A DNA stretch of 64,000 bases from Symbiotaphrina buchneri (taxonomy: Eukaryota > Ascomycota > Symbiotaphrinales > Symbiotaphrinaceae), in the NCBI GenBank assembly GCA_001599915.1, contig BCIG01000019.1, positions 1 to 64,000 on the forward strand, in the 5' to 3' direction. Numbering within the stretch: position 1 is the stretch's first letter; the number at the start of each line of letters is the position of its first letter. The notes below the pieces were generated by a model. That model ran no database searches. It was given only the letters and a program-made list of their open reading frames with translations, and was not told where the DNA came from. A program made the position numbers and the translations under genes. Below, one piece after another: positions 1 through 50,700 of this stretch.

Positions 1-3000
1 GCCACCGCCTTCGCGTCCGGCCCGCCCATTGGCTCCCCGCCGGCGAGGCCGTCGATTCTGCCGCCAAACCCGGACCCCGTCATGCTCCTTCTAAGGACCA
101 GCAGGCGGATATGTGGGATTCGCTCGGACCAGCTATGCGGATGCTGACGGCGTGGGCGTTATTGGCTTTGATATGGTAACTACCGTCGACCCGGACTGTG
201 GTGTTTGCCACGGGCTAATGCGGAACACAGGGAGGGACCAGTACGGATGTCAGCAGATATGCGGGTACCTTAGAACATGTGTTTGAATCCACCACCGCGG
301 GCGTTACGCTACAAACTCCGCAATTGGACATAAACACGGTTGCTGCCGGAGGTGGCTCGATCCTCTCCTGGCGAAATGGCCTATTCTGCGTTGGGCCGGA
401 GAGTGCTGGCGCACATCCTGGTCCCGCTTGCTATCGGTACGTGCTGTGAACAAGTTCAGGAAGCACACCGCTGATGACAAGGCAGCAAAGGAGGGCCCCT
501 TACCATTACTGACGCAAATCTGCTGCTTGGGCGCATCATGCCAGAATACTTCCCCAGCATCTTTGGACCCAATGAAGATCAACCACTGGACTTAACTACC
601 ACCAGAAAGCTTTTTGCGGAGCTTGCAGAAACAATTAGCAAGGATATGGGAAGCAGCATATCCGCTGACGAAGTAGCTCTTGGGTATAACTATGTTTGGC
701 GTCTTGACGTCCGAATGCTAAGAGGTGTTCAGGTTCATCAATGTTGCCAACGAGACAATGGCTCGTCCGGTACGCTCACTAACTGAAGCCCGTGGCTACG
801 AGACGTCTCACCACCGACTTGCGTCCTTCGGCGGAGCGGGTGGACAGCACGCATGCGACATGGCTTCCGTGCTCGGCATAAAGACCGTCATAATCCATCG
901 GTACTCCTCGATCCTTTCCGCTTACGGCATGCACCTGGCCACTGTCACGAACGAAGCACAAGCACCGTGTTCCGAAGTGCTCGGAGAAGCGACGTACATG
1001 CTCCTGATGAGTCGAGTGGAAGAGTTGAAGAGGAAGGTAGTGAGCGAGCTGGTCGCTCAGGGGGTCCACGAGAGTCTGATCGAGCTTGAAGTATTCCTCA
1101 ACATGCGCTTTGAAGGTACAGATACAAAATTGATGGTTGCGGAACCTAAAGATGGTGATTTTGTGACCCAGTTCAAACACCAGTATAAGCGTGAGTTTAC
1201 GTTCTTGCCGCCGGAGAGAGACATATATGTGGATGACGTCCGCGTGCGAGGGTCAAGTAAGCGGCAAACAGGAGTTGATGAAACTCCATTCGACGCGCTG
1301 CAGGCCATTGCGAGTGGGCAGATTGAAGTCAAGCCGTCAATACCAACAAAATCGACCAGAGTGTGTTTCAAAGATGTTGGCTGGGTGCCCACTCTAGTGT
1401 ATCTCCTTGATCAGATCAAGGACACTTGTTTAGTGAAGGTTCGTTACCACGTGTGGAGTCCTTGTCATGATTTGACTGTGTTAGGGACCCGCCATGATAA
1501 TAGATCAGACGCAAACAATCGTGATCCTCCCAAGCTGTACAGCTACGATACTGAGCAAACATATCGTTATTGACGTGAAAGAGAGCCAGAAGACCGCATT
1601 GAAACCAACGGCCATCGAACACGCGGACCCGATACTGTTATCAGTGTTCGGACACCGCTTCATGAGCATTGCTGAGCAGGTGGGCTTGACTACACTTTTT
1701 GGTATGCAAGTGTTGTCGATACTGAACAAGTGCTAGATGGGCCATACTTTGCAGAAGACAAGCGTCTCCGTGGCCATCAAAGAACGCCTAGATTTCAGTT
1801 GCGCAATCTTCGGGCCGGACGGCGGACTCTGCGCGAATGCCCCGCATGTACCGTAAGTCTTGATGTACTGATCCGCAACATGAAGTATTAGTTTTCATGC
1901 CTTAATTCTAGGGTGCATCTCGGAAGTATGCAAAGCAGCATCCAGTTTCAGCACCGCCTTCACTCCAAAGACCTGCGACCAGGAGATGTGCTGTTGACGA
2001 ACCATCCGTCCGCTGGAGGCGTAAGTTGCCAGCCTCCCGCCTTGCAGAGTGCACTAGGGCTAACCACTTGCAGACCCACCTCCCCGATATAACCGTCATT
2101 AGCCCTACCTTTGATGCAGAAGGCAAAGAAATCCTTTTCTATGTCGCCTCCCGTGGGCACCATCTCGACATCGGGGGACTGGCAGGCAACTCGATGCACC
2201 CAGATGCCAAGGAGCTTTGGGAAGAAGGGGCGGCCGTCAAATCCTTCAAACTCGTATCGCAGGGCCATTTCGATGAGGAGGGGATCCGTAAGATCCTCGT
2301 GGACGACCCCGCGCAGTATCCCGGTTGTGTGGGCAGCAGGCACCTCAACGATAATCTGTCCGACCTCAAGGCGCAGATCGCCGCAAATGCGCGTGGCGTG
2401 GCGCTGATCGAAGCGCTTATCCAGCAATATGGCAAGGAGACGGTCGTGTTTTATATGCACGCTGTGCGCGCGAATGCAGAGAGCTCCGTTAGACAGTATC
2501 TGAAGAAACGCATCGCAGAGAATGAAGGGAGGCCTCTCAAGGGTATTGACTACTTTGATGATGGGAGTCAGGTGTGTCTTACGGTGGACATAGATCCCGC
2601 CGACGGCAGTGCTCGGTTCGATTTCACTGGGTCCGGCCCCGAAGTTAATGGTATGTTCTCATTCCGCTGCTATGGCTGTGAGTCTGACAAGCCACTACAG
2701 GCAACTCCAATGCGCCCACCTCGATCACCATGTCCGCCATCATATACACGCTCCGCTGCCTCATCGGCGTCGACATCCCGATGAACCAAGGTGTGCTTAC
2801 GCCCATCAACACAATCCTGCCCTCCTCCAGCATCATCAACCCGTCGGCCGACGCCGCCGTCAGCACCGGGAACGCGCTCACCTCACAACGACTCGTGGAC
2901 CTCATCATCAAGACCTTCGGGGCCTGCGCCGGGTCGCAGGGGTGCATGAACTGCCTGGGCATGCTGGGCGGGCCGCGGCCCGACGGAGGTTACGCGTACG

Positions 3001-3542
3001 CGTACGGCGAGACTATCTGCGGCGGCAACGGCGCGGGGCCCACCTGGGATGGCTCGGCGGTGCCGACGCAGACGCACATGACCAACACGCGGGCAACGGA
3101 TATCGAGGTGCTGGAGAAACGCTACCCGCTGATCATGCGGGAGTTCTCCACCCGCCGTGGCTCGGGCGGCAAGGGACTGCATGTTGGAGGCAATGGCGCG
3201 ATCAGAGTGTTTGAGGCGCGCGAGCCGCTCCTGTTCTCGTTCATGAGCGAGAGGAGGGTGCAGAGCCCGTTTGGCATGGCCGGTGGCGGGGACGGCGAGC
3301 GTGGGCTCAACTTGTGGATGAAGAGGAACCGCAATGGTGGCTTCAGGGTGGTGAACCTCGGACCCAGGAGCATGGTTACCATCAGGCCTGGCGAACGCTT
3401 GATTATCAATACACCGGGGGGAGGAGGTTGGGGGAAGGTCGGTGAAACGAATGGATATGCCGCACGGAAGGAGCCGCCGATGGTGTTTTCGAGAGCAAGC
3501 GGCACAGTCTCTGCCAGGCAGGAGTTGCAGGAAAGCCAGTAG
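1..3542 (+). CDS. Hydantoinase/5-oxoprolinase (HyuA-HyuB fusion), 5' end outside window
   Basis: ATP-dependent opening of a 5-oxoproline or hydantoin-type ring; cytosolic family. Nine exons are readable: about 95-175, 231-436, 486-683, 733-1438, 1485-1679, 1737-1852, 1912-2020, 2074-2650 and 2701-3542, together 1010 in-frame codons. The HyuA part shows [14 protein letters not shown] (Gly-rich nucleotide-binding motif split by the first intron), [24 protein letters not shown] and [10 protein letters not shown]. The HyuB part starts near [18 protein letters not shown] and ends with the usual NTPGGGGWG tail. The family is about 1250-1300 residues, so some 250-300 N-terminal residues lie outside. 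Bases 1-94 could not be placed in an exon with confidence. Whether the substrate is 5-oxoproline or a hydantoin cannot be told from sequence; the carbamoylase nearby favours a hydantoin. Confidence 0.9.
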
Positions 3543-4069
3543 AGTCTAGCTCGTGCGTCTCAATATGTGAACTTCCTGAAAATCCAAGTAGCGAAACAAG
3601 GAGTCGACCCTCTGATTACGTGTCTCGTGTGTCTGTAGTAATAGTTGTGCAAGACGAACTCTTGCTCAAAGTGTTGAATGTACGGGTATGTTGGTTTCTT
3701 ATTTGACGATCAGATGTAATGATGGAGTCAGCCCGCCCGACCCCACTCCGCCCTTATCTAGATGTTATACGGGTGATAAGGTATGATACATCTGGGGTTT
3801 GCTGTCATTGAGTCATTCCCAATAAGCAATTAAGGGATGCGTTGCTGTGGCAGATTAAGAGGGGTTGAACGAGTTTAAAGATCTTTCATTAGTTTCAGTG
3901 AGCCTTAAACTGGCATACACATCTTTCTTACACGAACAGAGACAGATGGTATACTGACTAACTCAAAAGCACTCCCATATTCACAGTGTACGGACTGTAA
4001 GTTACACACGAGACTTCAGGATGGCCTTCTGCACCGTTCCACTCGTGCCCATAGACCCAAAGCATACAT
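3543..4069. other. Intergenic, convergent gene ends
   Basis: The 527 bases lie between the 3' ends of the oxoprolinase and dioxygenase genes. I see no coding signal; they should contain both 3' UTRs. Confidence 0.6.
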
Positions 4070-5481
4070 CTACTGGTAAACAGGGACCCCATCCCGCATC
4101 ACATACTCCTTCGGCAACTCCACCACCATATCCTTTGCATTGGGATGCTTATGCCTGGCAATCTTCAACCGACGCATGGAATGCTGCAACACGAATTGCA
4201 TCAGCTTCCATCCCAAGTGCCTAAGCAGCATGGTCTAATTACTCACCTCATACGTCGTCATCGCATCATACTTCTTCGGGCTCTCCTCAGAGAAACAGCT
4301 AGGCAGCACATCGATCAACTCGTTACCATTAGCGCCAAAGAAGAACGGGAGCGAGTAGCGATCCATATCGCCCTTGTTGACCACACGGTGCACGGTGGAG
4401 AGAAACTTGTCGTTGGTCATACGCATGAACATGTCGCCGAGGTTGACGACGAAGCAGCCCGGCTTGGGCGTGACCTTGATGAATTCGCCCGATGCATTCA
4501 GGACCTCCAGCGCCGGCTCGGTCGTCACGGTCTGGGCGATCATCGTGAAGACTATGGCGAGGGATTCAGCCCGTTAGCATGCGCTGCACCATATCCTAGG
4601 TGTACATCCCACGAGGAAGGTCCGGGACTGGTTTGGCAGAGCACTTACACTCGATATCGGTATGCGCTCCCAACCCCGTCTCCTCGTCATCCGGCGCCGT
4701 CATGGGCGGGTAATGCAAGCTTCTGACACCCGCCATGGGCGTCGTGACCTTCTTGTCAAAGTAATTCTCGGGGAGGTCCAAAGCCAGCGCGAAGATGCGG
4801 ATAAAGCGCCTGGCGAACTTCAGGAGCGCCTGCTGGTAGGCGATCATGCGGGGTTTGAAATCTTGGATCAAGTCCTCGGCGGGCCAATGCGAATCCTTGA
4901 AGATGTATCTTGGCATTTCTCGCGCGCCGTCAGGGTCCAGTGCGGGGTCGTAGGCCCAGGAGAAGGCTTCTTTGCAGTCTATTAAGGCACAAGAAAGGGT
5001 CATCGGTTAGCAGGTTTCACCCTTTTCTTTGGTCATACTTGACGGCGCGGCTGCGCCAGGTTCATAGTCTCAAAGACTCACCTCCTCTCTTTCTCTGGCC
5101 CACATTTGTGTAATACAAAGGCTCATATCCCAAGAACCATTGATTCTTCCCCTGGAACACCGTCATCTTCTGCTCCTCGGGCAGAGCAAAGAAGGCCTTG
5201 GCCGCGTCCAGCGCGCTGTCCACAATCGCCCAATCGATGCCATGGCCCGCGATCTGCATGAAGCCGATCTGGGTGCAGGCGTCACGCACTGCTGACGCGA
5301 CTTTCTGCCGCTCACTAAGATCCGTCGAGTACATGCCCGACACATCGAGCACGGGGATCTCTTTGAAGCTGCTGAGACCCGGGTGTGATTGTGCGAGGGA
5401 GCGCGTTATGCCTTGTTGAAGGCGGAGCACGCCGCCCTGCTCGGTGGAGGAGGTGGTGGAGACATGGGATGTCGACGCCAT
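4070..5481 (-). CDS. 2-oxoglutarate/Fe(II)-dependent dioxygenase, isopenicillin N synthase-like
   Basis: Predicted 382-residue soluble oxygenase of the DIOX_N plus 2OG-FeII_Oxy architecture, which oxidises a small molecule using 2-oxoglutarate and O2. Four exons on the minus strand: 5481-5082, 4978-4649, 4551-4247 and 4183-4070. The N-terminal part has IPVLDVSGMY and GFMQIAGHGI, typical of the family. The iron triad is visible as H-x-D in GLGAHTDIE and a distal His in STVHRVVNKGD, followed by the 2OG-binding RYS of DRYSLPFFFGANG. The start at MASTSHVS was chosen over an upstream in-frame Met because homologues begin close to that point. Length is normal. It shares a 1.2 kb divergent promoter region with the UNC93-like transporter. 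The substrate is unknown; members include thymine and flavonoid oxygenases. Confidence 0.9.
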
Positions 5482-6698
5482 TGTGAGTGTGAGTGTGCTG
5501 CGGTGGGACTGGATATGGTACAATGAAGAGGATAACACTATGTGGCCAGGCTTTCGTATGCAGTTCGGCAAGAGACTGGGACTGTTATGGCGCTGTTTAT
5601 ACCGATGACACTTTCTGGACGTTGCTAATCAGCCTCTGTAGAATAAAGACCATCCTCTATCAGGCCCCGCATATTTATCTAAGACGTAAGCCGCCTCGCC
5701 CCTCAAGCATCGCCCTACCGGCACTGTGCCAAACGGCCGGGTGAGCCAGTCTGCGAGCTTCCTCGCCGAAAGCGACTATGTGCCGGCGCACCGCCCCCGT
5801 GTTGCTCTCCCGTCACGGGCCCCGACACAGCTCGACCCATCCCTGCGCTGACTAGGCACCACTTTCAAGCTGCGCTCAAGATAAGACAACGCCGTGGGGC
5901 GCCGATACGGGCGGAGGTCTTAGGCGCCTTGCCCTATCATATTAGAGTTGCCCTAGGTTGCCCGACGCGCGGACGAGGCGGGTAAGCTAGCGCCTCCTGT
6001 TGGGGAAGCTGCGATAGCCGACGTCGTCGGAAAAACAGGCAGGCAGCCATCGGGCAAGATGCGAGTGGGGAAGACGTCTGGATTGCAGAATGATTGAAAT
6101 CAAGGGACGCTGACTGGTGGACGGGGGTGGACGGGGATGGAGAGGTAGCACAGCGTGGTTGCCGATGCCCGCATCCAATATTCTTTCGCAGCGGCCCGGG
6201 ACCGCGGTGCGATGGTTATCGCCCGCTTTTGCCAGTGGTTCTCCACAGCCAAGACAAATCAGTTGCCCGATGCATCGACTAGAGTCGGCACCGCTAGTTT
6301 CATTCGCTGGCTGTGCGATTGTGCAGGCTTGGGGCCTCTTATCAACTCCCTTGACAGGGGGTGATATTAGCCCCGCTTTGGTGGGCGCGCAAGGGCGATG
6401 TTCAGATAAAGACAGCCGGGATCGCGAAGGGAAAGCGGGAGGAGATCGCCGCACACCCATCGGGCAACGTGGGTGTGTACTCGAGGGGCTATTTAATTGA
6501 AGACGGGCCCGCAAGAAGGCAGAGATAAAATCATTGTCTTTAATCGACTTTGAGGCAACTGAAAGCTCTGGCTGTCCCTGCCATAAAAGCACAGAGAGGG
6601 ATTTACTTGATAAAAGATACTTGAATTATCCTTTTCCTGTCTTCGTCGTTCTTTGCACCGTTTGGGCATTGCTTCTCCTCGAAAATAAGACGCACATT
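5482..6698. promoter_or_regulatory. Divergent promoter region (dioxygenase / UNC93-like transporter)
   Basis: This 1.2 kb intergenic region lies between two divergently transcribed genes and probably holds both promoters. It contains several GATA cores (for example GATAAGAC near 5880, AGATAAAG near 6405 and AGATAAAA near 6523), which would fit nitrogen control by an AreA-type factor. That is inference from motif matches only. No convincing ORF is present. Confidence 0.4.
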
Positions 6699-36318: not shown

Positions 36319-36978
36319 TTTTTTCTTTGTTCAGTATTTTGCTTCGATATGGATCTCGGTACAGATCGAAGAGGGAGTTGCACGTTAGAAAGAGGAAGTT
36401 GGACGTTCGAGAGCCATTCGTGGCATCCATCTATATCATATTGTAGGGCCGGTGTCCTATCCGGAAGACCCGCAGTGACTCCGCAATGACGCGTTATCAA
36501 GGTGGCCACTCCCTATCACGGTGCGTGGATGGATGGTGTGATCGCAACTGAGAAGGCGGGAGTGGGTCCACTGCTCCAAGGCATCTGAAGTCGGCAGTTC
36601 AAGGCAGTCCCAATAGAAGCGGATAACGAACAGGGCTGTCAAGCGCAGCTTTCTGCTCAGATTGGATGAAGCATCACCATAGAAAGTTCTGGAGACCTAG
36701 AACACAGTAACATGAACAGCTCTCGTTGTCTTCTTGAATATGCTCGTATCACAGGCATGCATGATCGTATGACGTTCCCGCGGCACGCTTCCGGTTATCT
36801 CGGCCCACTATCCCCTCGTCTGATTGATGTTGCCGATTAGCGCCGTTTGGATCTTGGCAAGCGGTGGTACTTGTAATCGATGACGTACTATCAGATCTCC
36901 CACCTATTTTGTATGAGGTTTCCTCCACACCATTTCTTCTCCTAGGTCACTCCGAAGCTCCACATTCCACCACCAAAA
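36319..36978. other. Intergenic, upstream of transposon remnant
   Basis: Contains the promoter of the SnoaL-like gene and probably the left end of the piggyBac-type element. I could not identify a terminal repeat or TTAA boundary with confidence. Confidence 0.35.
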
Positions 36979-38745
36979 ATGCCGCCTAAAAAAGCTTCCC
37001 TAAACAAACGCTCTTTTGAAGCCGTCTTCAATGATATCCCTGACCCTTCTACTATCGACTTTGAACCGTTGGATATCGCTCCTAAACGAGAAGCTTCTAC
37101 CTTGTTCCCCTAGGACGTCGATACAAGCAATCCGTACCAATTATTCTCCCTGTTCTGGCCTGAGCACATCTGGTCTACGTTAGCTACCAACACCAACTGG
37201 TATGCTTGAAAAGAGGAGAAGAACAGACCTTTGCAGCAATGGCAGCATCGTTGGTACGATACAACGCCTGCAGAGATTAAGCTCTTTGTAGGGACGTTAG
37301 TCTATATAAGGATCCATTCTGAACTGCAGATCCGTGATTATTGGAACAAGGAGTTGAAAAAGGGTCCTGTCCACCCTATGGGCCTCCAGATGTCCCAGAA
37401 CCGGTAGGAGCAGATCAAACGCTATTTCCATATGTTAGGACCGTTACAACAAGGAGAAACAGAAGAGGAAATTGCTATGAAAGAGAAGGAAGACAATAAT
37501 TAAGACGCCGGCTCGGTAGATAAGATAGACCTTTGGTGGTGGTTTCAGCTTAAGCTGTTAGCCTTACTTGTATGTGATCGCTGTTGGAAATACTATTCTC
37601 CTAGAACTGAATTAGCTATCAACAAGCTTATAGTCCGTTGTTTTGGTCATAGCAAGCATACGTACAAGATGCCCAACAAGCCTATCAAAGAAGGTTACAA
37701 GCTCTTCAACCTTGCAGAACACGGATATCTCTGGTGATAGTATTGGAGCTCTTGCAAAGAAGGCATGACAGAGATAAAAAAGGATCCCAACTTAACCTTC
37801 ACCGGCTCAATAGTGTTACAGCTGATCCAGTTGCTCCTGCCTAAGCCACCTATCCTGTATGCCATCTACATAGACAACTATTTTACCTTTATCACGCTCT
37901 TCAAACGTATGCAGGAGCTTGGATATAAAGCCTGCAGGACCACCTGTGCAGATACGGCCAGGCTAAACTTTCCTAGCTTGCTGAAAGAGCTCAAAGAACA
38001 TCACTGAAATCAACTCCTATAGAACACCCTAGCGGCTTTTGCTATAGACAGAGTGCTTTATCTAGGATAGCAGGATAACAACATTATCCTTGTTTTATCT
38101 ATAATTCATACGGTTAATCAAGCAACTGACTACATAGAGCAGGAATGACGCTATCCTGGCAACACCAGTATAAATGCTAGGATCGTACAGAAGGCTTTTG
38201 GAGAGCTACATCAGAAGAAGCTTATGATCCTCTGTATGATCAACAACTACAACTTTAAGATAAAAGCGATAGACCTGGTGAATCAGTTTTAGGAGATGTT
38301 TAAAACATACTGTATAACATGGCGCAATTGATAGCTGCTTTTCTTCTGGCTTCTAGATACCATGATCATCAATGCTCTACAACTGTCATACATCGATTGT
38401 ACAAACAAACAGCTAAAGCCTCTTACCTACCAGGAGTTTCATGATAAGCTGATAAAGGAGCTATTTAGACAGGGAGACAGAGAGACACAGAAACGTTCAT
38501 ATAATGGCAATTTGGACTTTATATAGCTAGATACAAAGCTAGAACACGTCTGGACCGAACAGAAGATAAGACAGGGATGCGCTTAGTGTAGATTACTAGG
38601 GAAACGTTCCTGGACTGTTCTAGAAGAGGTCTCTACGAATACTATAGCTGATAAAAAAGCTTCCTAAAACAAGTTTGATTGTAAAGCTTACGATGTAGCA
38701 CTTTGCAGGAGGAAAGACTGTTTTGAAAAGTTTTATTCACGGTAG
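36979..38745 (+). mobile_element. piggyBac-type DNA transposon, decayed transposase
   Basis: Reading one frame through stops gives a transposase of about 589 codons, starting MPPKKASLNKRSFEAVF. Family marks are FGHSKHTYKMPNKPIKEGYK, the DDE-domain segment YIDNYFTFITLFKRMQELGY and a C-terminal Cys-rich finger (FDCKAYDVALCRRKDCFEKFY). At least a dozen in-frame stops interrupt it, for example after TLFP (CCC TAG GAC), WYA (TGA), QNR (TAG), EDNN (TAA) and YLW (TGA TAG). Most are explained by C-to-T or G-to-A changes in Gln, Arg or Trp codons while the frame stays in register. That pattern suggests repeat-induced point mutation rather than random decay. Terminal repeats were not found. Confidence 0.85.
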
Positions 38746-39453
38746 ATTACTTGATTTCAATTGCAGATACTTGAATTTAGACAGAACTTTATTGTTTTAT
38801 AAGCAATTGCCATACAAATTCAATGGAGTCTGTCATTGCAGAAGTCAACTTTGGTGGTGTTGAGGTGCCAAGAACCCGATCGACGCTAAAACGCACTAAT
38901 CAGCAACATATGCAATCAGACGAGGGGATACGTTCGTACACAAGCTTTCGGATCAAGCTCTCGGATCAAACTCTCGGATCAAGCTCCCGAGTCGTTAACG
39001 GTCATTAGCGCACAGCCTGAGGACAACAATTCCAATGCAGGCCCACCATCAAAATATAGTCCTTTTGCAAGTCCAACCCCGGGGGATCCACCGGGTCTTC
39101 TCAGTGCTAGTAGTCATATAGTGCCGACAACCTAGCTTTGTGGGCGCACACGCGAATGAGGCAGGTGTGAGTGAGACCTGGTGACAAAGAGCCATTCTGA
39201 GAATGCAAATCATGCCAGGCTGGCTTCCGCTAGAGAGATGTGGGATCCGAATTGCATTTTTTCCTGAGGCTAAGCGTGGGCAGTGAGGAATAGGATGATG
39301 ATACGCCTTGCCGGGCGGTTGGAGAGAGAAGCATGTGGAGACCTCATGAACTATCTCGTTGGTACTGCTATCTAGCCTGCTTCTGCCAGCTATATAATGT
39401 CATCCCTAAAACTCAACGCTGGACCAAGCGTCTCTTCCAGACAAGTTGACACT
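38746..39453. other. Intergenic region with short tandem repeat
   Basis: Includes the probable right flank of the piggyBac-type element and a 13-bp unit (GATCAAGCTCTCG) repeated three times at 38951-38989 with one or two changes. No gene recognised. Confidence 0.4.
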
Positions 39454-42400
39454 TCACGCCTCATGCTCCGCGGTCACTCTACGTCTCTTGACGATACGGC
39501 CACCCTCGGCTTGCACACCGGGCAAGGAGGCTCGTGTTACCCGCTGACCGGAGATACTATGCATGATAGTCTTTGCAATCCCCTCGGCAATCGTAGGTGG
39601 GAACGCGCACACTGCATCGTCGTACTGTTGGGCTTCAGAATGGTAGACACGAAGTCGTCCTCCAATCCCTGTAGACGCGCAGTCTCTCTGACGGTAAGAA
39701 GATCACCTCTTGCTGTACCACCAGTCAGTGTCTTCACGAAGCTAGGAATAGGAATAGCGTGTACTTACACGGATGGATGAAAGAAGAGCCGAAAGAGGTG
39801 CAATCATAAGAAAGTAAAACCCTCGTGGCCTCCATGTCAATGGGCTGATGACTGTGACCAGGCTTTCGGCCCGTCTGGTGGTTGTAAACATATTTGGGTG
39901 ATCTGTTTGTGCCATTCCCGTCCATTAAGCTGTCCGGTTGGTGGCTGCATACAAAGCCAACCTTGGAGCCTTCAGCAGAGCGCGGATTCTGGTAGTCTAA
40001 GTCCTCGATTAGGGATCCTACTGTGGCAGGTATTAGAGGTTTGTGGAATCGTCCCCATTCAAGCTCAGAGCGCAGTGGAGATGCCACCAAGACGAGGATG
40101 TTCCTCTTTTACGGCAGTCCATAGCTGGAAACGTCGAGCAGTTTTAGATGGATGGAGCACCTCTTATCGAGCACATTCATTATCGTCTCCAATAGCTCTG
40201 AGAACGCGGACGAGTGGAGAACGGCAGCCGGAATACCAAGAACAATGAAATCGGACCTTACGTCGAAATAGTGAGAATCGACAAGGACCTCAATGGCATC
40301 GAGAGGCAGGAGAAAATCTTCAAGGGACAACGCATGTTCATTGGCATCCACCAGTTTGAAATAGGCGTTAGGTCCGACCTTCAAGAAGATTTTGGGGACC
40401 TCCGGCCCTGGTAACTTCGGGGGGTCCAGTCCACCAGACTGGAATGAAGCTATGATTTTACCTAGAGGGCCATCATACACCTGAGCAGATGGATATCGCA
40501 TCTTAAGACATCAGCTTCGTTCATAGAAAGGGTAGCGCTTGACTGACCTTCCAACTCATGTGAAGTTCTTCATGAAAGCTGAGTGCAGCGTGAATTTCAC
40601 AACCAGCCCTAGAGAATCCTTCTGAGGGTCCCAGAACGTGTGGGCTAAGATCGAGAACAACAGGTTTATGTTCAGCACTGTATCGCGGCCGTTTCCAGTT
40701 GTCGTTGCCTGGGACGATCCTGAAACCGAGGGGCGTGATGCATGCAGATGTCTCATCAGGACTGCACCATATGCCGAAGCGGCAAAAGAAGCCTGTTTCT
40801 TCCAGGTATTCAATGGATTCGTCTTCAGGGGAGCTGTCAACCGAGTGGTTGGGCCTCTCAACCGTATGTACCGGCTTATCCACACTCTGTGCCTCGGTAA
40901 TCTCCTCAAACTGTATGATCTCGGCGTCTTCGCGTAAGCCCATGTGCTGGAAGGATCCGAAATGCAACAGTAGCTCCTTTTCATCGATTTCCTGGCCGTG
41001 CTGCTCAATAGACGCTTGGTTCTCGAAAGGCGGACTGGACCGCAGGAAGGAGTATTTGGTGACGAACATCTGATAATGCTCGTCACCGTCGGAAACTATA
41101 TCCCATACGTGGATGACAAATTGACATCCTTTCATGCGGATAAGTGTATCTTCACCAGGGCGAAACGTGTAATCAAGACGTCGGCAGTATACATCCAATT
41201 CCCCGACCCTCTTTAAAGGATTAGCAAAACTTAATCAATACGTATGAGCGACGCAAACACATACCAGTGGCATTGTAACACGCTGTGGCACAAACCTGGC
41301 AAAGCAAGATGGCAGATCTTGTTCGTGCCAACGTTGCCAAGTTTCTCTATCTTGCTGCTCACTAGAAGGAGTTGCATGCAGAGGACCATTCTTCTTGGTC
41401 TTCTTTTGTCCTCCCGGACGAGGAGCGGGTGATCGAATGCTTGCCGCATAAGGAAGTGGCCTGGTACGGTACGGTGTATGCTGGCGGAGATTAGGGCTTG
41501 TGTCACTCCTTTCAGATACTGCCCCAGTCTGCCCTGCGTCTGAAGCGTCAGACATTGCATCCTGCCGCAGGTCTTCGTCCACTCCGGCCGACATGGACGA
41601 TGCAGGCGAACCACTATCACCCGTTCCAGCAAGCTGCATGACGACTGCTTCGCTTGGCTTTACAGGTGAAGGGGGTACACCGAATATTGTCTTATCTCCC
41701 ATCTGAGCAACAAGTGCAAATTATTTTGTTGAAGGGTCAAGACCCAAGAACAACGCCGTATTTTTGGACGTGACCTGCTGCAGACAACCGCAAGGCATGT
41801 GATCTCTATCCGACCGAGGGGCCCCAAGGTCTGATGAGACAGACGTATCAGCTATACGAGGTCAGTTACGTTCAAAAATATGATTCTGTTGTTCTCACAA
41901 TCTCTGTGCAGTAGCTCTTCTAGCTTGTGTTCACAAGTGCCGTTTCTGTGCAAGGCTACATGATACACGGTGCTTGAACCGTACAGGTCGGCAAAAAGTG
42001 CACTGTGACCGTCTTTCCAAGATACTACAAGCCTATCATCGTATGCCTGAGGTTTGTTGATCCTAATCCAGCGAGGTGTCTGTTGGAGTTTCTCTCGAAT
42101 CTGATGCCTCAACCGCCGTTCGTAAGTAGTCGACTCCAAAGGATCAACAACCAGAGTAGGTAGGATGTCATGAATGGCCATGTCGAAGAGCTCTTCAACT
42201 ACATGATCGCAATGAAAAGCCCCCAAGTTCAGGTTCCGGGTGTTGGGGAGTCGTGAAAGTGGGCAACTTGTGGTCTCGTGGATTCCCTCGAAGTCTGTCC
42301 ATTTTTCATGGATCTTGAGGAGCTTGGAGTCACCGTCGTAAAGAAGATCAAGCTCTGTATCACCGCCCTTGACGACTTGTATCGTGATATCCGCCAACCT

Positions 42401-43903
42401 ATCGCTGAGAGCCAAACACGACCTCATCATCCTTACTACGTGGTTGGAGAATACATCAGAGCTGGTAATGACGGCCGCTGCTCGAAACAAACGTTTGCAT
42501 TCCTCTTCAGGAGGGTGCACCAAGGAATGACAAGTCAGTATGCTCCAAAGGAGTTCCGATAGTGGCTCAGGCTTCTTCTTCAACGTCCTAGTTATTATGG
42601 TCCGTGACTGTAATGCACCTTGTCAGCTCGCCGATAACTGGTATAGAGGCGCTACCATACAGGCACGTACTTCGTCTGTTGCCTTCTCGCAGTAGAAGAA
42701 GGCCCCTGGCTGACTACTCCTGAGATGCTCCCAGATACGGCGCACCGTGGAACGGGTGATATACTTTTCCACCGAATGCACATCCCAACTTCTTACGTTG
42801 TTTTGAAGCAGGTTGCAATATGCTTCAACCAGTCCTATGTTCTGATTAATGGCGGCTGCCCATATATTCACACGTGCTCGAGCTTGTGTGGGAGATTGTG
42901 CTGTCTTGTTCCTGTCCCGATCTATGGCTCCATCGAAGTAGTTGTACCCAAAAAGATAACCGTAGTCAATCTTATGCTCGGTGACAAGGAGACCTTTGAG
43001 ATAAATTCTCCCTGCGTACTTATCTCCAAGCAACAGACATCCATGGTCCGTTTCAATAATATCCGATGGGGTTGGGAGACAAGGGTGGAGTACCACATCC
43101 AGCCATGAGTTGAACTCTTGGAGGGTTATTCTCTTTCCTTCCGGTCCTTTCCCTTTCGATATCTGGAACGTGACGTCTTTCCACATCTTGCCTGTTAGTT
43201 CCGGATTGCCCTCCCTCACGACTTTGTTCTTCTTCCGCTGGAGAACCTCCGGCTTTGGTTTGGTAACTTTGATGGCGAAAAGCTTGAGATCCTCGGCGCC
43301 GTTACCTCTGTTACGAAAACCGAAATTCACATAACTTGAGCTGGCAGAGATGTGGACGGTGTAATTGGTGCGGCACAACACCAATGCCGCAAGTTTGAAA
43401 CCCTCTCCATGTTGTCCGGCGGTATGTGGATCGAGTCTCTTGGTGCTCGACCCGAAGAGCAAGTGCTTGCCTTCTAGACGAGCATTGAAGTTGGTAAATT
43501 CTAGCTTTCCCTCTTTTATTCGGAAAGTAATGTTAGCCTAGAGGCTCGGAGAGACCACTGGATGCGATGTATCGATGCGCAGTGATATAGATCAGATTAC
43601 GCTCCTCGCCTCTGACAGTCTTGAAGGACCGTGGATCTAGCTGATTTGTTGTGATGATAGCATCCATCCTGTAGACATAAGGATTCAGCCAGGATGCGCC
43701 ATACAAGAAGCGCGCACTTACCAGTTCTGATATATCTCCCGAAATGCATCTCGGGGGGTCCAGTTCGAAACATATTCGGCAGTCAACATACTAGAGTACA
43801 CTCCTGACCGAAGCTCTGCAAGCTCTTCGGTATTACCATCAGGCACGCCTTGATCCCAACGGCTAGTGTCCCCATCCTCTTCACTAGAAGGCAACTCGCT
43901 CAT
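39454..43903 (-). pseudogene. GHKL-ATPase / cytosine-5 DNA methyltransferase fusion, decayed
   Basis: A large minus-strand host gene. N-terminal GHKL ATPase: DAFREIYQNWMDAIITT (N-box, across an intron), then HTAGQHGEGFKLAALVL (Gly-rich box). About 700 residues of helical and strand-rich sequence follow with no known domain. The C-terminal C5-methyltransferase shows motif I-like GFSRAGCEIHAALSFHEELH, motif VIII LLDVSSYGLP.KRNILVLVAS and motif IX LTVRETARLQGLEDDFV with the AEGIAKTI tail. Damage: a one-base frame shift near 43535 after GLSEPLG; no Pro-Cys pair in the motif IV position (KVGPNAYFKL); motif VI Glu-Asn-Val unreadable; TAA at 40109-40111 where QKRN is expected; and a one-base shift near 39650. 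It cannot encode an active methyltransferase as read. One gene rather than several is inferred from the continuous strand and order. Confidence 0.7.
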
Positions 43904-44530
43904 TTTGAGCACGTTAAGGCACTGGGAGATTGCTTTGAAGAGAGAAGCACGTTGAAGTTTCACAACAAGCGATAGAGCCAAGGTGAGTACACAAACGGGC
44001 GGCCTTCTAAGCAAATGCACCAAATGGAAGGAAGTGAGATAAGCGGGGTGGAGGAGACTGAGAAGATATGGAAGAAAGTGGAGTCCAGAGGAAAGAGGTT
44101 GAGAAGACTGGTAATTAGAATGTGAAAGTTAAGTGAATGAGATTGATGTTGTTGTTGCTCTAAGTCTAAGCGTGTTCGCTCAGTGAAGGCCATTCACAGT
44201 ACATACCAGGAAACATCGCTTAGAGACGGGTTTCGTTGCAGACCATCCACCAATTTTGCCCATTGGCCAATCGCCTGCAGCTATATAAATAGCAGCTGGT
44301 AGGGGGGTCCCTACTAGTGCAGGAGGCGCGACCAGTTGCAGGAGGTACGATTACCTAGTTGCAGGAGCTGAGGCCCTAGGTCCGCCTCATTTTCAACGCA
44401 AAAGCTGATTGACCAGTCCTACCCGATGTACCACAGATCTATGACGCTGGGAAATTAGGTTGGAGGGCCTATACCCACCCCTGCTTCTGTTATATTTGTT
44501 TACCTTAACCTGGACCGGTCCAACTATCGT
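43904..44530. other. Upstream region of the decayed fusion gene
   Basis: Contains a CCAAT-type element (CCATTGGCCAATCGCC, 44260-44275), a TATA-like TATATAAATA (44283-44292) and three copies of (A)GTTGCAGGAG or a one-base variant within 44315-44370. No gene recognised. Confidence 0.4.
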
Positions 44531-44539
44531 GAGATTTCA

Positions 44540-45060
44540 ACCTTGGTGTTTTGGATGTTTTATTTTTTTTTATCACAACAACAGATAGGAGTTAGAAGCT
44601 GTAACTTTATAAAGCTGTTCAGAAATGTCTGACCTTTCCACTATATTTTTTAAAGCCATTTAAACCAGATTCTAGGAAGTTATTAGCTAAGAACGTTTTA
44701 TTTGTTTTTCTTGTTAAGACCATATTGTAAAATATAGTAGATTAACCCTAATCAAATTATTAACTACTACAACTATAAAAGTAATCAGAATTATGATTTA
44801 AGTTACTTAAAATAATCTACTGGTTTTAACGATTTTAAAACTGTAATAATTATATAAATACAATGTTTTCTTAAATTTTTATAAATTTCAAAGTTGATAA
44901 GTTAGTATCAAAAAACTGTAACACCACAAAGAAAAGTCATGATCACCGGGTAAATCCCTATGTTACAGACTTAAAAAGGTTTATATTAACCTTGCAATCC
45001 TAAGCTGTAGTACTCTGGTACCTTGATTTAGGTAGTAGCTAGTAAGAAAGTTAGGTATCT
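44540..45060. repeat. AT-rich relic island
   Basis: A sharp drop in GC with many TA-rich runs and no open frame, next to a decayed transposon and gene. It is typical of old repeat sequence eroded by C-to-T mutation. No family could be named. Confidence 0.45.
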
Positions 45061-45730
45061 CTGAGCCTTACGACCTAAGGCGTAGATCAACATTGATTCT
45101 GCAATCCTCAAACCACTAGCTTCAGCCTCAACACCAAGCAGATTCCTGATCGGGGTAGGGAAGGAAGGTCAAAGCGCGTCGAAATAGCCGTTAACTAAAA
45201 GAAGCTTTGGGCTATTGGTCAATGGCGGATTAGTGGAAGGCAGGCAAGTATGACGGCCTAATTAGCCAATGGCGAGTTGGTGGGTGGTCTTGAACAAGTT
45301 TTAACTCATCAGTTTCACCCTCCCATCTCAGGATTAGTGAGTTAGATATAAAATGATGCACGTAGTGTTTGGTTCCTCATGAAACGGTAAGTGAACCTGG
45401 CTGAAGTAGAGTCTGCTACCGAGGAGATAGCACGAATGGTTGTGTCAGAATCTAAAATTGAGAGTGGAAGTGTAAAGCAGGCAGGTTCAAGATAACCTCT
45501 GGAGGCTAGAAGTTTCGATAAGCTCTTTTACAAAGTTGGACAAATCTGACGTTTTTACAAGACTCCAGCATCTTCGAAGGAGCTGGTCTAGATGTCTGTC
45601 ACGGAGTAGACGTTTACTGATATAGGAGGTCGTACTGGAAACCCTTACACTGCAACATGATCTGACAGTCAAATCGCTCCTAGGATTTATCCAGATCCGC
45701 CAGGCTATCAGCTGCCAACTCTTCCGGCAC
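45061..45730. other. Intergenic region with CCAAT-type repeats
   Basis: Two further CCAAT-box sequences (GCTATTGGTCAATGGCGG near 45211-45228; TTAGCCAATGGCGAG near 45262-45276) resemble the one at 44260. An overlapping minus ORF is a shadow of the next gene. Confidence 0.35.
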
Positions 45731-47734: not shown

Positions 47735-50700
47735 TGGTCCTAAAGCAATGCCCCCATTGCGATAGGACCTTCACACGGTAAGCTAGGCTCGCCCTCCCAC
47801 TTCCGTTGGCGGTCTTGGCGACCTCAGCGCGCGCAGAGCGAACCGCCCGGGCGACTCTTAACTCCGCCCTCGCTCTGATCCTTGCACCAAGCTAACATGG
47901 GTTGATTGCTCAAGTACCGAACATCACAAGAGGCATATGAGGTCGCGTGAGTATAATTCGAAGCATCTCGGACTATTACTGAGCCCTCCCAGATACCCAA
48001 CAGCGACCTTACAAGTGCCTAATCTGTGGGAAGTCCTACAGTCGTTCGTATGTGACTGCCCACGCTCCTACCACTGGCTACCCCGCTGATATATATGCCA
48101 GGGACGTACTCGGCCGCCACGTGAGAGGACATGCAAAACACGCAAGCGAGGACGGCGAAAAGAATGAATACGCTTCTGCTATAGTGGTGGAAAAGGCAGA
48201 CGAGGACATAAGTCAACGCAGGCCATCAGTGGTGGAGAGTGATGCATTCTCAGACGTACGGACCGAACAGGATCGGCAAAGCATAATGCAGCATTCGTCT
48301 CCGCACAGGCCGAGCCTCTCGCAGAGCGTGGATTATGGCAATGTGCATAATGTGTCATCAACACTGAACATGCTGGCGGACGTATCATCACAACAACAGC
48401 CACGACAAGGACTTGACAGGGATACGGTCATGGGGGATAATAATACTACGAAGTTCTCGCCAATGAGTAATTGGGACCAGAGCTTGCTCATGCCTAGTCC
48501 TGCTGCATACGGCAACAATGGCACACCGAACGATCGGCTTCCATCGAATACACCGAGCATGTCGAACTTGAACAGTATGCCTACAGTGCAGGAGAATCAA
48601 CCCTTCAGCTTCGCTCGTGGTCATATTAATCCAGACTACATGTCTACACCTTCAACCGCACAAGCTCCACCAGAGGTCATGGCGCGGCAGCAGGCAGTCA
48701 CACCTGCTGGCAGTCTTTCGGATATACTCCAGGTCTGGTTGATGAACCCTGATGGTGACGTGGCTTCTCAACATGGCGGCTCACTGGCTTCTATGAATGA
48801 TGACCTGGCGTTTCACTTCACTGGCGGGATGTGGGGTGAAGGCACATCAGCTGAACGACGACATGTTTCAGTTGGGGCTCGTTCGGAAGACATACCAAAC
48901 GAACGATTCGCTAGGGTGGAGAGATGCTGGATGACGCGACCCAACCGTATCGGCCGTCTAATACCTACCCTCTGGCAGTCGGTGGCATCAAGCGACGTAG
49001 AAAACATATTCGCCACTAAGAGCTTGCAAATGGGGGGTCTGTTTCCGGAAGGTGGCCAAGGCTCACGACGAGGGGTGGATGATGAATGTCGTAATCGATT
49101 ACAGAAAGGCTTTGATATTACCGCAGCTCACCCAACAGATACACGTTCACCAGAGCAGGAAACACCTGGTGCACAATCTTCAACTGGAAGATCGACGGTG
49201 ACAGTACAAGTGGCTACCTTTCCGCCAGCTGAAGTGCTTGATATGGCACTTGATCTTTACTTCCGACAATTCCATCCCCTAATACCTTTCATACACGTTC
49301 CGACATTTTCACCTCGAACAGCGGCAACCCCTTTGACTTTCGTTTTATGTCTGATTGGATTAGTGCTACTGGGAACCGAAGGTGCAAAGCATTTTGTATC
49401 CCAGGTATTTCCGGTACGTTCTCTCATCCGGCGCTCCGATCCACCAGTCTGAACTAACATCGCTTCAGGTTGTGTTGAAGAAAATCCTAATTCAAATGAA
49501 CTCGATCTCGACCGGATCATGTAGGACCAATGAAATGCTAACTACATTTGCCACTGCGTTTCTAATGCTCAACCTTGCTGCCATGACTGGGGTAAGCTGG
49601 CATATCCATGAAGTCTTTCCCTTGCTGATATGCCAATAGGAGAAGGATCACCTGGAGGATTGCCAAATATTGTACATAAATCTGATTTCGGTATGACTGA
49701 CCATCCATCCGCTTGAATAATCATTCTCTGACTGCATTCAGATCGCACAACGACAAGGACTTTTTACGGCCAATGATGGACAACCACTGGATGCCCGACT
49801 ATTTGAATCGATACAAGACCCCTATCAGAAGTGGACGGCATGGAGCCGAGTGGAGTCCACGAAAAGGTCAGTTCAACGTTCTCGAGATCCGGTCAAGTTA
49901 CTGACATGTAGCAGACTAATTGTTGGCCTTTTAATGATTGATTCTTGGTTCGCAAGCTTCCTCTTCACAAGCGGTATCATTCGGGCAGACGAAACACAGG
50001 TGATCCTACCATGCAACGACACACTCTTCAGCGCCGTCACCGCCTCTCGATGGCGGTGGCTTCTTCAAACCGGAAAACTCCTCGTCATGCCCTCCATAAT
50101 CTCCACATCTTCCGGTGTCTTGCTCCCTACCACGCATCAACCTCCTGACTTCTTTGCCATGAACGCCATCCTCTCCACAATTCAACTCCGCATCTCCGAA
50201 GCCCACCATCGACTCCGCATCTCCAACACCACCACTCTCGTTCCCTGGCAGACTTACGAGAACGACCACCGCGGCCGCTGCGCTGCACCTCTGGTCGTCG
50301 ACGTTATGGACAAGTTCGGGTCCGTTCTGAAAACCCTCAACCCGAACTGCATGGTGCAGTGGCACAACATGTGCATCATGCTCACCGCCGACGTATCCAC
50401 CTTCGAAGTCGCCGCCGGGCGCGCCGGGCCCGATCCCGCGCGCAAAGCGCTCAACGACATCGCCGAGTGGAGTCAGACAGCAGCAGCACGGCGGGCCTGC
50501 CTTCACGCAGCGCAGACATTCAGACTCATGTCCGACCGGCGCGCAAGCGACGGGACAATGTTCCACTCCGCCGCCGCTCTCTTCACCTCCGCGCTCGTCC
50601 TGGGTCTCTACGTATTCATGGTGCCACGCGACAGCACCTCCAACACGCCCGACGGCGAGGGCCTGGAGCTGCTCGACGAGGTCGACTGGCGGCGTGTCGG

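Follow-up and report, generated by a model that had tools for sequence, protein, structure and literature searches.

GHKL ATPases that carry an S5-type second domain are ATP-gated dimeric clamps, with topoisomerase II, MutL, Hsp90 and MORC as examples, and DNMT3L is an inactive regulator of the C5-methyltransferase type. MORC ATPases carry out ATP-driven DNA compaction tied to silencing in animals and plants, and are stated to be absent from fungi in the portion of Iyer et al. 2008 covered here (PMC2292703). Bacterial MORC-like GHKL genes adjoin C5 methyltransferases in restriction systems (PMC2292703, PMC8011034, each in part), and rIIA has been described as belonging to the GHKL ATPases and as having a C-terminal domain that varies (PMC7824862, in part). 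The fungal methyltransferases named in the covered portions of three further papers (PMC7862722, PMC5073141, PMC13297926) are DNMT1/Masc2, DIM-2, RID/Masc1, DNMT5/Rad8 and DNMT2, with DNMTX also mentioned. Here we describe a locus of the ascomycete Symbiotaphrina buchneri, at 39,454 to 43,903 on the minus strand of contig BCIG01000019.1 (assembly GCA_001599915.1), in which a GHKL ATPase is followed by a C5-methyltransferase homologue that has lost its catalytic motifs. The window analyzed is the 64,000-nucleotide stretch comprising bases 1–64000 of this 665-kb contig, in a genome of 23.4 Mb. The reading that we favor, and to which we assign an even chance, is that this is a damaged fungal gene, with no second copy found, in which a GHKL-S5 ATPase from a family of phages and bacteria is combined with an already noncatalytic, C5-methyltransferase-type reader, and that its C-terminal half is decaying.

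The coordinates and strand given in the initial annotation of this locus proved correct, with its upper boundary, 43903, being the start ATG of our gene model. This ATG has CAAA directly 5', i.e., an A at position −3. The spliced model comprises eight or nine exons, and its first 646 codons are open once spliced and contain the GHKL ATPase and the S5-type second domain. Exon 1 (43722–43903) encodes the first part of the N-box, REIYQNW, and by itself matches positions 3–29 of the profile phrog_6077 with an E-value of 0.024, while exon 2 (43617–43668) encodes the remainder of this box, MDAI. The phrog_6077 match continues in exon 3 (42671–43537, 289 amino acids), which holds the glycine box GQHGEGFK, the S5-type second domain and a DRDR motif. 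Exon 4 (41899–42607) encodes a middle region in which relatedness to the phage family stops near residue 393, and what lies beyond has no known domain. Exon 5, or the start of a longer exon 5/6, spans 41744–41851 and is followed by an in-frame TAA (41721–41723) and by exon 6 (41265–41695), which has an open frame encoding a Ser/Pro-rich, basic linker. Exon 7 (40548–41210) encodes a domain without assignment and then, at about residue 967, a degenerate methyltransferase motif I, VLDLSPHVLGPSEGF. The sites of motifs IV and VI, motif VIII and the variable region lie in exon 8 (39769–40501), and exon 9 (39457–39712) contains motif IX, LLTVRETARLQGLEDDF, followed by a change of frame into a remnant of motif X, AVCAFPPTIAEGIAKTI.

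Introns 1, 3, 4, 6, 7 and 8 have GT...AG ends and a G at donor position +5, and, of seven introns examined, five have a CTRAY branch motif 9–15 bases before the 3' end. The signals of intron 2 are weak, yet the junction that it produces aligns with phage relatives. Codon scores rank the sense frame best in exons 1–4, 7 and 8, which is a weak test because in exons 3, 4 and 7 the antisense frames almost equal or even exceed it. The two homologies proposed at the outset are found in the expected order on one strand, and they read as one spliced gene. Searches with the exon 3 and exon 7 frames detected no paralogue elsewhere in the genome, and the phrog_6077 profile matched the genome at this locus only.

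Judged by its sequence relatives, the ATPase is of a phage/bacterial GHKL family and not of the MORC or Hsp90 type. The spliced N-terminal 367 amino acids match the phage family phrog_6077, whose function is unknown, with an E-value of 5.2e-31 and 109 bits. The exon 3 frame alone scores 81 bits, so that the gain to 109 bits upon joining the N-box exons to exon 3 supports the intron model. A hidden Markov model (HMM) built from 66 distinct phage and bacterial proteins gave 143 bits over fungal residues 37–393. With tblastn at E-values up to 0.1, matches were obtained in 100 of 50,697 phage records (some being duplicate entries of one phage) and in 5 of 72,556 plasmid records, and the family scan comprised 66 viral and 4 prokaryote loci. 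Because four of nine relatives searched against Pfam have a HATPase_c or HATPase_c_3 match, which exceeds the cut-offs in two cases, we regard the PHROG 6077 family as GHKL. All seven relatives scanned for PHROG annotation are labeled "unknown function", and among the listed rows one member is annotated "RIIA lysis inhibitor" and one "HATPase".

The N-box and glycine box that the initial annotation had picked out are both present, the former split by intron 1 (EIYQNW|MDAI), and the phrog_6077 E-value places them beyond chance. The E/N/D residues of the N-box and the GxxGEGxKLA pattern are conserved between the fungal row and six aligned phage rows, except for one of the six in which GEG has S as its first residue, and the N-box pattern is found in 62 of the 66 distinct relatives. 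At the place of motif II (DxGxG) the fungal protein has FTNFNARL, and the strict pattern is likewise missing from 60 of those 66. Retention of the N-box and glycine box supports ATP binding by this putative ATPase, whereas support for hydrolysis is weaker. In a tree of 68 rows, from which rows shorter than 330 amino acids and duplicates had been dropped, the fungal row sits on a long branch (2.73) outside the supported clades. No relatives of the exon 3, exon 7 or exon 4 frame were detected in viral_contigs, nor of exon 3 in genome_contigs. A PDB search by sequence with the N-terminal 367 amino acids returned nothing, and a 7-row profile returned only ribosomal protein S3 (E-value 0.59).

The fungal protein thus shares with the PHROG 6077 phage ATPases the whole ATPase module (37–393), the N-box, the glycine box and the DRDR motif, as well as a motif II that is degenerate in most members. 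Unlike the fungal gene, these members are free-standing, with lengths of 260–548 amino acids in the loci read, some of which are cut by contig ends. Bacterial restriction systems would be a natural source for a pairing of GHKL ATPase and C5 methyltransferase, but among this family's 70 loci, searched with one motif pattern, none has a C5 methyltransferase in or beside the ATPase gene.

An AlphaFold2 model of exon 3 made with 38 relatives (predicted local distance difference test, pLDDT, 81; predicted TM-score, pTM, 0.74) has a GHKL fold with an S5-type second domain. Compared with the PDB, the predicted fold matches MORC2, Hsp90/TRAP1 and topoisomerase II, and MORC2 ATPase chains are the top PDB matches in Foldseek. 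This is the likeness that the gene has to the GHKL-S5 chromatin ATPases MORC and SMCHD1. In contrast to MORC, HATPase_c_3, MORC S5 and a CW finger are not detected by Pfam in the 783-amino-acid N-terminal part, for which a search at E-values up to 10 returned no family at all with a program whose filters drop most weak matches. The label HSP90/MORC-like in the initial annotation consequently has to be given up at the level of sequence and is retained only for the fold. The middle region in exon 4, modeled from a single sequence, gave a pLDDT of 36, too low to be informative. A by-eye idea that this region holds a degenerate zincin, taken from the phage C-termini, was rejected when a profile did no better than shuffles.

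The C-terminal part, as initially proposed, does match a C5-methyltransferase profile. Exons 7–9 joined with an X at the stop match PF00145 with 23.9 bits against a cut-off of 22 (E-value 3.3e-5, profile positions 120–297), the match involving exon 8 together with exon 9. Significance is reached only upon joining exons 7–9, with the exon 9 frame alone giving an E-value of 0.011, and the methyltransferase at this locus was not among the results when the genome was searched with Pfam exon by exon. TIGR00675 (E-value 0.0019, far under its cut-off) and phrog_116 (E-value 0.0029) match weakly. Five plasmid records match at E-values of 0.01–0.6; three of these are annotated as DNA cytosine methyltransferase and two are without annotation, one of the latter having an open reading frame (ORF) with PCQ and ENV. 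No further methyltransferases were found for a larger profile. Exon 7 compared with the BAH/DIM-2 N-terminal region gave a z-score of 6.3 in one alignment, against 4.7 for an unrelated segment of that protein.

Alignment of this part shows which motifs are left. At the place of motif I (FxGxGG) is LSPHVLG, at that of motif IV, with its catalytic Cys (PCQ), is GP--NAYF, and at that of motif VI (ENV) is LGI. Motif VIII (SYGLP-KRN, with a stop inside) and motif IX (LLTVRETARLQ) are kept, and motif X is a remnant in a different frame. Of the three motifs reported initially, VIII and IX are therefore clear while motif I is a mere degenerate trace. Given the degenerate motif I, the absent PCQ and the change of ENV to LGI, catalysis is very unlikely, and the C-terminal part reads as a putative pseudo-methyltransferase. 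The changes in the catalytic motifs are missense changes in open frames, which suggests that catalysis may have been lost earlier than the frame was broken. For the same reason, the earlier proposal of a single protein for both ATP-driven clamping and DNA methylation is unlikely.

Two clear lesions are present. The first is an in-frame stop at 40111–40109 within motif VIII, beyond which the coding signal goes on in the same frame, and the second is the frame change at about 39,648–39,624 in exon 9, near the C-terminus. The initial description of the gene as decayed holds for the C-terminal part, with these two lesions and a third, doubtful one discussed below, but most of the apparent frame changes are introns. 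The in-frame stop or stops and the frame change mean that the present copy yields at most a truncated product. This product would have 646 amino acids (ATPase and middle region) if the TAA at 41723–41721 is a true stop, and 1134 amino acids (up to motif VIII) if the TAA is spliced out.

In the favored reading of an ATPase joined to a noncatalytic reader, the two parts would be made from one transcript as a nuclear-type protein. Its ATPase half would bind ATP and dimerize via the ATPase domains, and, in the manner of GHKL clamps, the dimer would close around DNA or a complex of protein and DNA. The role of the C-terminal half would be to recognize DNA or chromatin rather than to methylate it.

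A number of observations weigh against this reading. Its weakest link is the fusion at the protein level in the present copy, as intron 5 is poorly supported, the candidate donors and acceptors tried for it score poorly, and exons 5 and 6 show no codon bias. The TAA at 41723–41721 is a doubtful lesion, as it is either a third lesion or lies within this poorly marked intron, with the frame agreeing on both sides. The structural matches of the ATPase have low TM-scores. For the methyltransferase part, a PDB search by sequence placed an unrelated protein in the top row (E-value 0.15), with M.HhaI next at 0.29 and weaker. An HMM from five methyltransferase sequences scored 38.9 bits compared with at most 3.1 for 1000 shuffles, a result that leans towards the query because three of the five sequences are the query's own plasmid hits. 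The composition of the upstream flank and the points in favor of two separate genes, both given below, belong on the same side.

Among the alternatives, the one that survives best is that the entire locus is what remains of a once-active ATPase-methyltransferase, now a dead pseudogene, the missing catalytic motifs being part of the decay; we consider this unlikely, though it deserves a serious hearing. All two or three lesions fall within the C-terminal half, a broken transposon, presumably of the piggyBac type, adjoins the gene, and the flank at 44501–45500 has the composition expected of repeat-induced point mutation (RIP), with composite indices of +0.53 and +0.29. The GC content in 44501–45000, upstream of the gene, is 0.28. 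However, the spliced ATPase half is open over all its 646 codons, as are exons 7 and 8 as far as the stop. Neutral decay would also not single out the catalytic motifs, whereas here I, IV and VI have disappeared and VIII and IX survive. RIP as the cause of the damage was rejected, since the indices over the gene itself (39001–44000) are ordinary, with composite values of −0.18 to −0.79.

It is improbable that the locus consists of two genes, a free-standing GHKL ATPase that ends at the TAA and a separate decayed methyltransferase gene downstream. Such an arrangement would account for the in-frame TAA and for the weak splice signals of intron 5, it agrees with the free-standing state of the phage and bacterial relatives, and an ATG is found 18 bases downstream of the TAA. 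Nevertheless, an 18-base gap is too short for a terminator and a promoter, the downstream ATG has a C at −3 where ATG 43903 has an A, and the frame is identical on either side of the TAA. We think it equally improbable that the lesions are assembly or read errors in an intact gene, which would be compatible with the anatomy that we favor. The lesions are indeed very few over ~1300 codons, but two or three separate ones sit in the very half that has lost its catalytic motifs. Finally, a fungal MORC fused to a methyltransferase is highly improbable despite the top Foldseek rank of the MORC2 ATPase chains, as no Pfam family matched the N-terminal part at E-values up to 10, the relatives identified by sequence come from phages and bacteria, and MORC is stated to be absent from fungi (PMC2292703, in part).

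Like the fungal methyltransferase DNMT5/Rad8, a GHKL ATPase joined to a noncatalytic reader would unite an ATP-driven module with a C5-methyltransferase domain in a single polypeptide. In DNMT5 the ATPase is of the SNF2 class and follows the methyltransferase, whereas the GHKL ATPase here precedes it; Pfam scans of the two long parts detected neither a RING finger nor an SNF2 helicase, and the same genome has a separate gene that we take to be DNMT5-like. RID/Masc1 and DIM-2 share the C5-methyltransferase homology, with motifs VIII and IX. The genome's own copies of these have PCQ; in the present domain I, IV and VI are absent, and in pairwise comparison it is marginally similar to RID and DIM-2. 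DNMT3L, which is called catalytically inactive (PMC13297926, in part), resembles the protein proposed here in being an inactive C5-methyltransferase-type protein; it has other partners, and a regulatory role for the present gene would follow only by analogy. Since the genome has a DIM-2-type gene (C6), a RID-type gene (C24) and, by our own reading, a DNMT5/Rad8-like gene (C27), classes that were named from motifs and architecture and partly from general knowledge, its methylation and RIP toolkit looks complete, and this set of genes would point to a fungus of the filamentous-ascomycete type. Further HATPase_c_3 genes lie on C16, C4 and C20.

Other features were seen in the family and around the gene. 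A C-terminal HExxH site is present in 16 of the 66 distinct phage and bacterial relatives (L020, L021, L025, L030, L056, L058, L060, L063, L074, L075, L076, L077, L080, L081, L083 and L087), an ATPase-metalloprotease architecture, and L025 has SprT-like and WLM matches under the cut-off. On Alkaliphilus plasmid pB6464 (L013), positions 2921–6232 encode a single protein in which three tandem GHKL modules of this family are seen by eye (two stretches by Pfam), along with a C-terminal HExxH. Within the window, three successive ORFs at 37210–38004 on the plus strand match DDE_Tnp_1_7 (E-values 1e-4 to 1e-5) and form a broken transposase that we take to be piggyBac-type. The ~670 bases at 36807–37474 have a 91% identical copy at 664515–665182, ~0.3 kb short of the contig's opposite end, and the window contains no TTAGGG array. 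An ORF at 47983–49449 on the plus strand has a match just below the cut-off to PF04082, a fungal transcription factor domain.

We found no description of a GHKL-C5-methyltransferase fungal protein in the portions of the open-licence literature covered, and those of a 2025 RIP survey (PMC12543289) do not mention one. As far as could be searched, the architecture is new, and it is represented by a single damaged copy. More tentatively, we propose that fungi may hold a chromatin clamp of their own, in which a GHKL-S5 ATPase from the rIIA-like pool of phages and bacteria is joined to a dead C5 methyltransferase that reads DNA, an unnamed class beside DIM-2, RID and DNMT5 of which the present gene would be a decaying copy. 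If this is true, fungi would have solved the task of MORC independently, with a GHKL clamp of another sequence family combined with a methyltransferase-type domain, and an ATPase family of phage type would be part of a chromatin-type protein of eukaryotes. It would add an extra class beside DIM-2, RID/Masc1, DNMT1 and DNMT5, and, should intact relatives also be without the catalytic Cys, this class would correspond in fungi to DNMT3L and similar inactive regulators.
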